DNA of 35,373 nucleotides. Origin: Allomuricauda sp. GTDB lineage: Bacteria > Bacteroidota > Bacteroidia > Flavobacteriales > Flavobacteriaceae. The stretch spans positions 1 to 35,373 of the forward strand of contig NZ_JANQIH010000189.1 in NCBI RefSeq assembly GCF_028282265.1. The letters are read 5' to 3'. Shown piece by piece: positions 1 to 34,638 of the stretch. Positions within the stretch are counted from its first letter, which is position 1. Each line of letters begins with the position of its first letter. Under the pieces are notes generated by a model, which worked only from the letters and a program-made list of their open reading frames with translations, did no database searches and was not told where the DNA came from. The position numbers and the translations under genes were made by a program.

Positions 1-345
1 AGTTCTAGAGTCAATTAGAGTTGCATAGGGTTCACTTTCCAAACGTTTTCTTTTGTAAAGCAAAACATCTTTTCCATTTATTACTTCTCCAAACACAAAT
101 CCATCTTTTTCATAAAAATTCAGCTCAATGTCCATTAATTTAGCGTGAGTGAATTCCAGCTTTATTTTTTTAATTTCTCCAGCTTTATATTCTGTCGTTG
201 TAGATTTTCCTTCTTTTTCTTCAACTACTTTAGAGTTAATTAAAACAGCGTTTTCATCAGTTTCAGATATCGATTTTTTAGTTTCATTTAGCCAGTCAGT
301 TTGAAGTCCAAAAACGACAAATATTAAAATTAAAAATTTGTTCAT
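1..345 (-). CDS. hypothetical secreted protein, 3' end truncated by the window edge
   Basis: Manual reverse-strand translation from ATG at 345 stays open to position 1 (MNKFLILIFVVFGLQTDWLNETKKSISETDENAVLINSKVVEEKEGKST...). Signal-peptide-like N-terminus. Not in the ORF track because no stop lies in the window. Confidence 0.6.
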   Translation of the reverse strand, partial: MNKFLILIFVVFGLQTDWLNETKKSISETDENAVLINSKVVEEKEGKSTTTEYKAGEIKKIKLEFTHAKLMDIELNFYEKDGFVFGEVINGKDVLLYKRKRLESEPYATLIDSRT

Positions 346-367
346 AATGCTGGTTTTAAAATACCTA

Positions 368-566
368 CAACGGTTGAGCTATGAACAGTACGGGAGTAAA
401 AAAGCGTTTGCTTTCCGCCACGCAAGTAGCGAAATCTTTTTGTTTCGATTTATTTTTTCCTATTCAGAGCAAAATCCAAAAGATTTTGCGAACTTTATGA
501 AAATACGCAAACCTTGTGATAAAACCTGAAGCCCTTATTGTTTATAGGTTTTGTTGCCATTAGTAG
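368..566. repeat. hairpin-rich intergenic element A (cassette-junction-like)
   Basis: Starts CAACGGTTGAGCTATGA, ends TTATAGGTTTTGTTGCC; internal perfect hairpins GCAAAATC-CAAAA-GATTTTGC and CGAAA-N8-TTTCG. Ends resemble those of element B. Confidence 0.5.
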
Positions 567-634
567 TTTAACACAATTGTTCATCCCCCAATGTTTAGGA
601 CAGCTTTTGATATAAAACTAGCTTAAATAGACAT

Positions 635-1531
635 TTATAACTCGTCGAATAAAATATTTCCATCAGCATCATATTTCAAATTCCATTCTCTATAGGTTGA
701 ACTGAAGCTTGAACTTCTTGGAGTCGTAGTAAAAACTTCAAACCAATAAAGCGAATAATTGTTTTTTGAAAGAGACCGATAAAATAATTCTTCAAAAATT
801 AAAAATTCCCTAATGGGATTTTCTGCAGAGTCATAATTCTTAAATCTTTCACGAGTTTTTATGGTTTTATCTAATTCTTCGTCGTATTCTACGGTCACAA
901 TACTATCTAAGTTTTCATTATTGTTATAATAGAAAGAAGATTCTTTTGGAATAGTTAATGTTTTGTAAAGAATCTTTGAAATCTTTCCGTTCAAGTTATA
1001 CTCAAAATCCAAGGTGTCAGTTTTAACTGGGTCAGAAGTTTCAATTATCTTTTGAACTATGTTATTATTTGAATCGAGGATAAAAGTTCTCTTAAAAACG
1101 GGAATATCTAATTCTAGATTATTACTTAATTTTTCTATAATAATTTTATTTTCATCATAAATGACTTCATCTGAAATTGAGTCATCATAAAAATATCTAA
1201 TTCCGGTTTCTGGAGCTACATTAGGATTATATATGCCTCCAGTTCTTTTAGTTATTTGTCCGTCTTTATTATGAAAAATACTTATTTTTTTAGAGAGGTC
1301 GGGGAAAGGTATTCCATTGGGATAATTCATGTAAGAGATAATGTAATTAAAGATATTTTGCCTATCCTCGCTTTCTTCCATTACCTCCGGTTCCTCATTT
1401 ATACCTTCAATTTCCGACGTCGGCATGTCGTCTGAAGTTGAACAACTTAGAGTTTGAAAAAAGATGCTTAGCATAAGTATTCTTAAAATTGCGTTTGACT
1501 TGGTAAATCGCATAGGATTATTTTTAGGCAT
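635..1531 (-). CDS. hypothetical lipoprotein
   Basis: 298 aa ORF, N-terminal hydrophobic segment followed by lipobox-like LSCS; no recognised domain. Confidence 0.75.
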   Translation of the reverse strand: MPKNNPMRFTKSNAILRILMLSIFFQTLSCSTSDDMPTSEIEGINEEPEVMEESEDRQNIFNYIISYMNYPNGIPFPDLSKKISIFHNKDGQITKRTGGIYNPNVAPETGIRYFYDDSISDEVIYDENKIIIEKLSNNLELDIPVFKRTFILDSNNNIVQKIIETSDPVKTDTLDFEYNLNGKISKILYKTLTIPKESSFYYNNNENLDSIVTVEYDEELDKTIKTRERFKNYDSAENPIREFLIFEELFYRSLSKNNYSLYWFEVFTTTPRSSSFSSTYREWNLKYDADGNILFDEL

Positions 1532-1579
1532 ATTTAAAATTAGTTGATTTCAAGTTTAAAAAATGAAAATATTTTTAGA

Positions 1580-1723
1580 CTATTAATGCCAACGGCCACG
1601 GCTATGATTTGTGGTGGCCTTGGAAATCGTTAGATTTCCAGTCGAGGCAAACCCAGCCGTTGCTAGTTTCTAAATTTGAAAGTAACGAATTGCAGCTATA
1701 AATTATAGCCCTTGTTAGCTGCA
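1580..1723. repeat. hairpin-rich intergenic element B (cassette-junction-like)
   Basis: CAACGGCCACGGCTATGA ... GCTATAAATTATAGCCCTTGTTAGCTGCA; internal hairpin GGAAATC-GTTA-GATTTCC and palindrome GCTATAAATTATAGC; about 126 bp between the outer AAC and GTT. Confidence 0.5.
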
Positions 1724-1734
1724 GTTTTTGAATT

Positions 1735-2454
1735 TTATAGTATATCAATTTTCCTGTTGTCCATTGGATAAAAATGGTCAGACCAATATTCATTGCTCAA
1801 TCCTAGTTGGTTATTTTCATCAACGAGTTTCCATCGTTTTCCGTTAAATTGATACAACCTATAAGATTGTTTACAATAACTCGGGGTCATTTCGAAAACC
1901 GCATGTTGGACCGTTCTATTATTTCGTGTAGTAATTTTTATTTCTAGGTGTTTTCTTTTTTCGCTGGTTGTTAAATTATAATTAGGAAAATGTGATGACC
2001 TCGTTGGAATTCCAGGGATTTTGTCTGCTTTCGTGTTTTCATAAAAACAATCATGGTCAATTATAAATTTGCCATTTACATTTTTAGTTTTGCATTTCCG
2101 TATTTTATCTGCGTCGGTGACAAGTAAGCTTAAATCATAAATATTATAATCGCTTATACTTTGCAGTGTTCCATAATACTTTGATTTTTCAGTTCTTCCG
2201 ACAAGTCCAAATATTGCAAATCCATCACCCATTACTGATTTGTTCAGCTCCAAAGAAGTTTTGGTTAGCTTTTCGGATAGAATTTGATTGTCCTCTGTTA
2301 AGGTGCCTATTTTACCTTCAAGAGTTTCAATTTTTGATTTATTCTTAAGCTGATTTCCGCTGTGAATTAGCAGAGTCCCTATAAGTATAAACAAAGCGCC
2401 TAGTACCGTAAAGAGGTGTAATCCGAATATCGATATATCTGTCATTTTTGGCAT
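1735..2454 (-). CDS. hypothetical membrane-anchored protein
   Basis: 239 aa ORF with an N-terminal transmembrane segment (LHLFTVLGALFILIGTLLIHSG) followed by a coiled-coil-like stretch. Confidence 0.7.
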   Translation of the reverse strand: MPKMTDISIFGLHLFTVLGALFILIGTLLIHSGNQLKNKSKIETLEGKIGTLTEDNQILSEKLTKTSLELNKSVMGDGFAIFGLVGRTEKSKYYGTLQSISDYNIYDLSLLVTDADKIRKCKTKNVNGKFIIDHDCFYENTKADKIPGIPTRSSHFPNYNLTTSEKRKHLEIKITTRNNRTVQHAVFEMTPSYCKQSYRLYQFNGKRWKLVDENNQLGLSNEYWSDHFYPMDNRKIDIL

Positions 2455-2464
2455 TTGTTCAATT

Positions 2465-2640
2465 TGCAGCTAACACGTGTATATAAACAACCCCCTAAAT
2501 TTCCATAAATTCCAAAGGAAATCCAACAAGAATGCCCGTAAAGAGCGATGTACTTGTTTGTAACCAAGTATAAGCGTATACAAACGTTTCTTTTTTCTTA
2601 AACGCTTACAAACGGGTCTGATAAGTATGCTGTTTTTTAT
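2465..2640. repeat. intergenic element C next to radC, no convincing ORF
   Basis: Starts TGCAGCTAACACGTGTATATAAAC; contains near-repeats AAGCGTATACAAACG and AACGCTTACAAACG. Right boundary is approximate. Confidence 0.35.
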
Positions 2641-2707: not shown

Positions 2708-3406
2708 ATGCAACCAAAAACCGAATCTTTATCCATTAAAAACTGGGCCGACGACGACAAACCTCGTGAAAAACTTTTGCAAAAGGGGCGAGCCATACTT
2801 TCCGATTCCGAACTTATCGCTATTTTAATCGGGTCGGGCAACCGGTCCGAAAGTGCTGTGCAACTTTCGCAACGCATTTTGGCCTCGGTAAATCATAATC
2901 TTAACGATCTAGGCAGGTTGTCCGTAAGCCAACTGATGAAGTTCAAGGGTATCGGCGATGCCAAGGCTGTCACCATTGCAGCCGCGCTAGAGATCGGAAG
3001 GCGAAGAAGGGGGGAAGAGCTCAAAAAACTAGAAAAGATAAATAGCAGCCAAGATGCCTTTGAACTGCTGTATCCGCAAATAGGGGAACTTGAACATGAA
3101 GAATTTTGGATTGTTTATCTCAATAATTCGAACAAAGTGATGCACAAGTCCCAATTGAGCAAAGGGGGCATTACGGGTACTTTGGTCGATGTGAGGTTGG
3201 TATTGAAACAGGCCCTTGAACTTGGCGCTGTGGCCCTGATATTGGCCCATAACCATCCCTCGGGAACCTTAAAGCCCAGTAGTGCCGATAAACAACTGAC
3301 GCAAAAACTCAAAATCGCCGCAGAGGCATTGGATATTAAAGTTCTGGACCATTTGATTTTGGCTCAAGACAATTATCTGAGCTTTGCCGATGCTGGAATT
3401 TTATAA
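2708..3406 (+). CDS. radC: RadC family protein (JAB/MPN domain)
   Basis: 232 aa; N-terminal HhH-like region (LMKFKGIGDAKAVTIAAALEIGRR) and JAB motif ALILAHNHPSGTLKPSSADKQLT. Confidence 0.95.
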   Translation: MQPKTESLSIKNWADDDKPREKLLQKGRAILSDSELIAILIGSGNRSESAVQLSQRILASVNHNLNDLGRLSVSQLMKFKGIGDAKAVTIAAALEIGRRRRGEELKKLEKINSSQDAFELLYPQIGELEHEEFWIVYLNNSNKVMHKSQLSKGGITGTLVDVRLVLKQALELGAVALILAHNHPSGTLKPSSADKQLTQKLKIAAEALDIKVLDHLILAQDNYLSFADAGIL

Positions 3407-34565: not shown

Positions 34566-34638
34566 GGCCCAAAAGGGTCTTCACGAAAGTGCATTGAAGA
34601 TTATCGAAGGATAAGCCTTAATTCATAATCGCACTTTC
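34566..34638 (+). promoter_or_regulatory. structured element upstream of rpsD, candidate S4-responsive leader
   Basis: GGCCC-AAAA-GGGTC hairpin (34566-34579) and nested helices GAAAGTGC/GCACTTTC, GATTAT/ATAATC, AAGG/CCTT (34585-34638). Confidence 0.6.

Follow-up and report, generated by a model that had tools for sequence, protein, structure and literature searches.

A probable integron-type gene cassette cluster without an integrase in an Allomuricauda draft genome, with related arrays in other Bacteroidota

The sedentary chromosomal integrons of the Vibrio superintegron type are the closest described counterpart of the cassette arrays analysed here. Both have an integrase gene adjoining an attI-like site, long co-oriented arrays of mostly single-gene cassettes, a site at the 3′ end of each cassette with GTT/AAC cores and cassette-own inverted ends, and a bottom strand that folds better; in both, one cassette is repeated within an array. 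The arrays described here differ in a Xer-like integrase that lacks the α-I2 insertion, usually carries an extra N-terminal domain and is co-oriented with the cassettes, in private ends of ∼10 bp that rarely follow RYYYAAC/GTTRRRY, in a conserved helix (GGCTATGATTTCGTTGCGG/CCGCAATGAATTATAGCC), in an attI with ATATAACNA directly before GTT, and in their host group, the Bacteroidota. Genes also lie between inverted sequences in transposons, the ends of which are common to all copies, and in the pdif modules of Acinetobacter plasmids, where the inverted sites are Xer-type recombination sites with conserved double-stranded ends.

According to published work on IntI, α-I2 is needed for single-strand recombination and occurs in no other protein (PMC7790495), and integrons cannot function without the insertion (PMC8138268). 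Integron surveys use IntI with α-I2 and a canonical attC model, few integrons have been reported in Bacteroidetes, and classical integrons are rare in Bacteroidota (PMC9024848). A search restricted to open journal papers found no description of the present system.

The window, the whole stretch of 35,373 nucleotides that was analysed, is an entire contig (G000:C250) of a 3.87-Mb draft genome in 312 contigs, and its base 1 is a contig end. It very probably holds the 5′ part of a cassette cluster that lacks an integrase and is part of a Bacteroidota integron-type system, the mechanism of which we infer. Three minus-strand genes (1-345, open; 635-1531; 1735-2454) stand to the left of a ribosomal-protein region, with two hairpin-rich stretches between them. 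The features of this region are as follows.

1-345, minus strand: gene of the third cassette, an open reading frame truncated by the contig end, with a signal-peptide-like N-terminus
364-371, minus strand (371-364): private start GTTGTAGG of the third, incomplete cassette, visible in the sequence; its partner (predicted CCTACAAC) lies beyond the contig end
369-555, plus strand: attC-like element E1, from AAC (369-371) to GTT (553-555); DNA fold z −2.3
372-1593, minus strand: cassette 2, complete; start GTTGGCATTAATAG (1593-1580), gene (1531-635), end CTACTAATGGCAAC (566-553), then E1
553-566, no strand assigned: private end of cassette 2, GTTGCCATTAGTAG, pairing with 1580-1593
635-1531, minus strand: gene of cassette 2, an open reading frame for a lipoprotein-like protein of 298 aa
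1580-1593, no strand assigned: private start of cassette 2, CTATTAATGCCAAC, inverted partner of 553-566
1591-1716, plus strand: attC-like element E2, with arms GGCTATGATT/AATTATAGCC and AAC...GTT; DNA fold z −4.3
1594-2474, minus strand: cassette 1 (5′-most), complete; start GTTAGCTGCA (2474-2465), gene (2454-1735), end CTGCAGCTAAC (1724-1714), then E2
1713-1723, no strand assigned: private end of cassette 1, TGTTAGCTGCA, partner of 2465-2475
1735-2454, minus strand: gene of cassette 1, an open reading frame for a membrane-anchored protein of 239 aa
2465-2475, no strand assigned: private start of cassette 1, TGCAGCTAACA, partner of 1713-1723
2475-2500, minus strand: 5′ boundary of the array, GTTTATATACACGT then GTT, with weak likeness to attI and no integrase beyond; upstream of radC (2708-3406)

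E1 was modelled in its plus-strand reading, which is the bottom strand relative to the cassette genes. The inverted ends reported in the preliminary description were recovered at the same coordinates, 553-566 matching 1580-1593 at 12/14 positions and 1713-1723 forming a perfect 11-bp inverted repeat with 2465-2475. The two complete cassette genes (298 aa and 239 aa) gave no match in a Pfam search, and the window's cassette proteins had no homologue among the retrieved loci. Rfam returned nothing for the cassette region; its sole match in the window was an S4-Flavobacteria ribosomal protein leader at 34599-34630 (RF03141, 52.5 bits).

A cassette begins with GTT followed by a private sequence and ends with the inverse of that sequence, closing in AAC; the outermost AAC/GTT is near universal, and in complete arrays the inverse of a gene's cassette start is found at its cassette end. 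For 13 cassettes of the window's own genome, the private part outside GTT/AAC matched its own partner at 6.2/8 positions compared with 2.4 after swapping, and none of 200,000 permutations was as good. The 162 cassettes from other genomes matched their own partners at 5.81/7 positions and cross-pairs at 2.55/7; 92 were perfect, and the observed match sum was 942 against a maximum of 495 among 20,000 permutations. A wider set of 472 cassettes held 358 that matched at 5/7 or better, a level reached by ∼10% of the cross-pairs in the 162-cassette histogram. The claim that each unit has an end sequence of its own thus holds beyond chance. The preliminary description had also named two outcomes that would count against it, neighbouring units without private ends and end matches no better than shuffled sequence; what we found were hundreds of cassettes with private ends, and own partners far above swapped ones. 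Its remark that the ends depart from the canonical consensus was equally borne out, as RYYYAAC fits 26 of the 358 cassette ends and GTTRRRY 27 of the 358 starts (∼7%).

The elements between the cassettes form one structural family. More than 150 were collected from the arrays of seven genomes; the folded sites are about 50-190 nt, and their central lengths group near 85, 92-96, 141-143 and 157-160. Their arms covary (GGCTATGA/TTATAGCC, GTGTATGG/TTATACAC, GTATAAGA/TTTTATAC, GGCTAAAA/TTTTAGCC, GTATAACC/GGTTATAC), and the long conserved helix showed 92.4% standard pairs across 30 diverse elements, compared with 34-48% in slid versions. Among these 30 elements, 16 of the 18 inner pairs had changed on both sides, with 113 double-changed cells against 37.1 after shuffling. 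Two pairs of the helix are mostly G.U (24/30 and 27/30) on the strand opposite the genes, where the other strand would have C.A. In some elements of set A4, one column (18) is bulged, on the 5′ arm when folded. Of the 471 circular sites reconstructed, 433 had a lower folding energy on the strand opposite the genes (Wilcoxon p 1e-72), and the same asymmetry is known for attC bottom strands (PMC3053210).

Covariance-model attC searches had been proposed as a check. The model used here, R1, was built from 30 elements, all from genomes other than the window's, and it picked exactly E1 (39.7 bits, E 4e-8) and E2 (61.3 bits, E 1e-13), both significant; over the whole window up to E=1, the only further match was one of 11 bits (E 0.8). 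A simpler half-site search with one mismatch was mostly noise within the window's own genome (21 matches, 15 in the reversed control). At the family level a 16-base pattern is clean, and the covariance model is better still: the half-site AACGGTCTCGGCTATG, with up to one mismatch allowed, occurred in 87 of 151 Flavobacteriaceae genomes, and the reversed control in four genomes among the matches listed.

Inverted unit ends with hairpin repeats on either side would also be expected of non-autonomous inverted-repeat transposons, MITE-like or IS-derived, that carry genes between the repeats by chance. Such an origin would not predict conserved strand-specific folding, and here every unit differs from the others in its ends (cross-pairs 2.55/7), and the units follow a tyrosine recombinase and an attI-like site, head to tail with one common orientation; we regard it as extremely unlikely.

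R1 also recovered elements on two other contigs of the window's genome, C99 and C150, and marked ∼20 places across it. About 20 elements of the family are present in this genome, including an array of ∼10 cassettes on contig C99 (L024, minus strand) joined by elements AACGGTCTCGGCTATGATT...AATTATAGCCATTGTT. The genes of this array include a RibD_C/DHFR-like protein, an alpha/beta hydrolase and a penicillin amidase, and its private end pairs, for example GTTGGCGCATC/ATGCGCCAAC, GTTAGCGGTAG/TTGCCGCTAAC and GTTGGTGGTAG/TACCACCAAC, lose their match when partners are swapped. Contig C150 carries a lone cassette of one element and one gene (L025:3880-5722). Its 5′ boundary, GTTTATATATACCAACA followed by TTGG, is similar to that of the window, which hints at a secondary-site preference.

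The same organisation was observed on a larger scale in relatives, where a cassette consists of one gene, rarely two, and a folded attC-like site. In a wider cassette set, the longest gene pointed in the same direction in 283 of 288 cassettes (283 vs 5), and the median cassette length was 793 bp. The arrays of Altibacter lentus comprise ∼80 co-oriented cassettes over some 80 kb, and another genome (G014) has two array blocks of comparable length; a cassette inside one of its arrays has as its gene (L225:10493-11773) a tyrosine recombinase of a different type, 426 aa long. Of 41 genomes from the window's genus, 40 contained elements and 22 contained the integrase; clusters that lack an integrase are therefore frequent in this genus.

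The absence of an integrase from the window, noted from the sequence at the outset, was confirmed: the contig carries none. The further proposal to search the genome for the element family and for a tyrosine recombinase succeeded in its first part, with the elements described above, and failed in its second, as no cognate integrase was found on any of the 312 contigs of the draft (95% complete). The integron integrase model TIGR02249 found only a host Xer-like gene there (84.8 bits), as it did in 14 control genomes, and in none of the 151 Flavobacteriaceae genomes was its cut-off of 265 bits passed. Below the cut-off, a protein of commonly 370-420 aa adjoins arrays on their 5′ side in many genomes, co-oriented with the cassette genes; four such array integrases scored 186-205 bits, in two matching stretches. 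For an unbiased test of the linkage, 20 integrase regions were chosen by score alone, without regard to elements. Where at least 1.7 kb of downstream sequence was available, 16 of 17 loci contained elements; 55 lay on the expected strand and 2 on the other, and a 33-kb control and shuffled sequences contained none. The integrase family occurs in 80 of 248 Bacteroidota genomes.

In the array-linked recombinases the Arg-Lys-His-Arg-His-Tyr set is complete, and there is usually an additional N-terminal domain of about 90 aa. By sequence and fold, their nearest relatives are XerA (5hxy, 4a8e), then VchIntI (2a3v); the best curated match was the XerA-like model NF040815 and the best fold match XerA, the predicted structure being used for family placement only, at its low pTM of 0.49. 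Almost all recombinases measured have 64 aa between the catalytic Lys and the His, compared with 107 in VchIntI and about 66 in 4a8e (both counted from alignments), and residues 181-243 of VchIntI correspond to only 20 residues in the array recombinase. The integron-specific α-I2 insertion, which in IntI lies near patch III, is therefore absent.

These properties bear on the possibility of a degraded classical integron, that is, an IntI-type system with attC sites and integrase that have drifted. It would account for the shared plan of integrase, attI, array, bottom-strand folding site and GTT/AAC cores, and for the two stretches in which the recombinase matches TIGR02249. On the other side stand the absence of any score above the TIGR02249 cut-off in the 151 Flavobacteriaceae genomes, the Lys-to-His distance (64 aa vs 107 in VchIntI), the XerA-like top matches, the few canonical cores (GTTRRRY at 27/358 starts, RYYYAAC at 26/358 ends) and the co-orientation of the integrase, where classical intI is usually divergent; the arrays are also too large and intact for relics. 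We consider a degraded integron unlikely. The features by which classical integrons are recognised were found in part, namely a recombinase gene at the array and an attI site (both in relatives), complementary own ends and a bottom-strand hairpin. Since the α-I2 insertion and a TIGR02249 score over the cut-off are lacking and RYYYAAC/GTTRRRY cores are rare, the system falls outside classical IntI integrons.

The array recombinases share with archaeal XerA and bacterial XerC/XerD (5hxy, 4a8e, 1a0p) the recombinase fold, the catalytic residues and the Lys-to-His spacing (64 aa; ∼66 in 4a8e), but differ in the usual extra N-terminal domain of ∼90 aa, in their location at arrays and in forming a clade apart from the Xer proteins of the same genomes, which group separately in the tree (100/100). 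A profile of 19 array-linked recombinases (A2) scored the integrases at about 280-570 bits and other Xer-like proteins at about 190-207 bits. Could the units instead be Xer-dependent, pdif-like modules, moved between inverted dif-like sites by the host XerC/XerD? The recombinase family is indeed Xer-like, and pdif plasmids are known to hold gene modules with inverted ends. However, pdif sites are ∼28 bp with conserved XerC/XerD arms, unlike the folded sites of ∼50-190 nt with private ends observed here, and the array enzyme is distinct from the genomes' own Xer both on the tree and by A2 score. This explanation is very unlikely.

Two further observations concern recombinase genes. In about eight loci (L240:15660-16073, L230:1913-2308, L209:933-1337, L210:702-1079, L205, L206, L130:4620-5003, L233:2390-2779), the gene immediately upstream of the integrase is divergent and encodes a small zinc-ribbon-like protein (∼130 aa, C..C...C..C near the start); it is possibly an accessory factor, or part of a shared insertion neighbourhood. 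Eight near-identical copies of a 304-aa Xer-like recombinase related to the array integrases were observed on one contig (G101:C1), with others in G126 and L353, and this multi-copy gene looks like a separate transposon family.

The attI-like site, like the integrase family and its Xer-like type, was seen through relatives, outside the window. In 18 loci, a conserved sequence located 27-206 bp past the end of the integrase gene immediately precedes the GTT with which the first cassette opens, and in 17 of the 18 the first cassette start matches its own end at 8-10/10 positions. The flank tracks the integrase subclade, with ATATAACNA before GTT in clade A, ATATAAACAA before GTT in clade B and ATATTCAATT before GTT in clade C; about 50 bp upstream, 17 clade A sites have tTATCC. 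We considered a Bacteroidetes-type promoter within attI (TATATTTG) and rejected it, as the distance between it and a TTG box is unsuitable.

Comparison between loci revealed cassettes that imply past movement, as read from their sequences. The same metal-efflux cassette, with a 264-aa cation-efflux gene, occurs in several genera at 84-93% DNA identity; the similarity begins at the GTT and stops at the site, with unrelated neighbours and flanks at a background of 58-70%, and the two private ends of the Altibacter copy have changed together. Of 47 stretches shared between loci, 20 began within 30 bp of a cassette start, where 8.5% would be expected, and 40 ended within a site, where 21% would be expected. 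At the window's own position, a divergently oriented gene of 150 aa adjoins radC in same-genus relatives, and no cassettes separate the two, in all 10 loci that show this side (of 11), the relatives compared being distant, at about 70-72% DNA identity. When the window's genome was searched for this flanking gene, the one match was a protein of 28% identity at a different location. Conserved synteny without gain or loss, which would have spoken against cassettes, was thus not what we observed: the array stands where relatives have a cassette-free radC side, and cassettes cross genera with exact borders. As its boundary has a loose likeness to attI and no integrase, the best reading is that the window's cassettes were inserted at a secondary (attG-like) site upstream of radC.

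Intergenic hairpins are common, and plain ones (bidirectional terminators or REP-like) in a conserved neighbourhood would involve no recombination. The probability of this explanation is close to nil, given the private ends, the attI-like site, the integrase linkage, the shared cassettes with exact borders and the cassette-free radC in relatives. The private ends and the integrase linkage were the grounds for rejecting the MITE, pdif and terminator readings. They also support, together with the element model and the relatives' recombinase, the initial suggestion of a non-canonical attC-like folded system or a CALIN-like array. The window copy is CALIN-like, with cassettes and no integrase on the contig or in the draft genome. 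The term CALIN refers to canonical attC sites, at least two of them less than 4 kb apart with no integrase nearby; E1 and E2 lie 1.0 kb apart and belong to another, new site family.

From these comparisons we infer that the system works like an integron. The recombinase would cut the folded bottom strand at the AAC/GTT core, between G and TT, and cassettes would be excised as circles in which pairing of a cassette's own two ends completes the site. Insertion would take place at attI, at the sites of other cassettes or at loosely matching genomic sites such as the one beside radC. Because the paired ends differ between cassettes, recognition is probably mainly structural, through the bottom-strand helix with its conserved G.U pairs and fixed spacers, together with the GTT/AAC core. 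Either another part of the enzyme replaces α-I2, or the chemistry differs. Whether integrons arose twice, a XerA-like recombinase without α-I2 having come independently of IntI to folded single-stranded sites and founded a Bacteroidota class of its own, is in our judgement evenly balanced. An apparent integron without α-I2 also makes testable the published view that this helix is what permits the safe use of single-stranded folded sites (PMC7790495).

The system is common in marine Flavobacteriaceae. If the integron-type reading is right, surveys of a dominant marine phylum have missed a common gene-capture route, which includes arrays as large as superintegrons. If integrons did arise twice, the Bacteroidota have a large unrecognised integron class of their own, with its integrase family in about a third of the sampled genomes. 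Exact half-site matches were also filed under distant taxa, namely MAGs of Anaerotignum (L077), Candidatus Abyssobacteria (L139) and Balneola (L124), and Membranihabitans (L101); these are either binning errors or real spread. The half-site was further found, exact, in 27 viral or proviral IMG/VR contigs (L176-L202), and phages may therefore carry cassettes or arrays.
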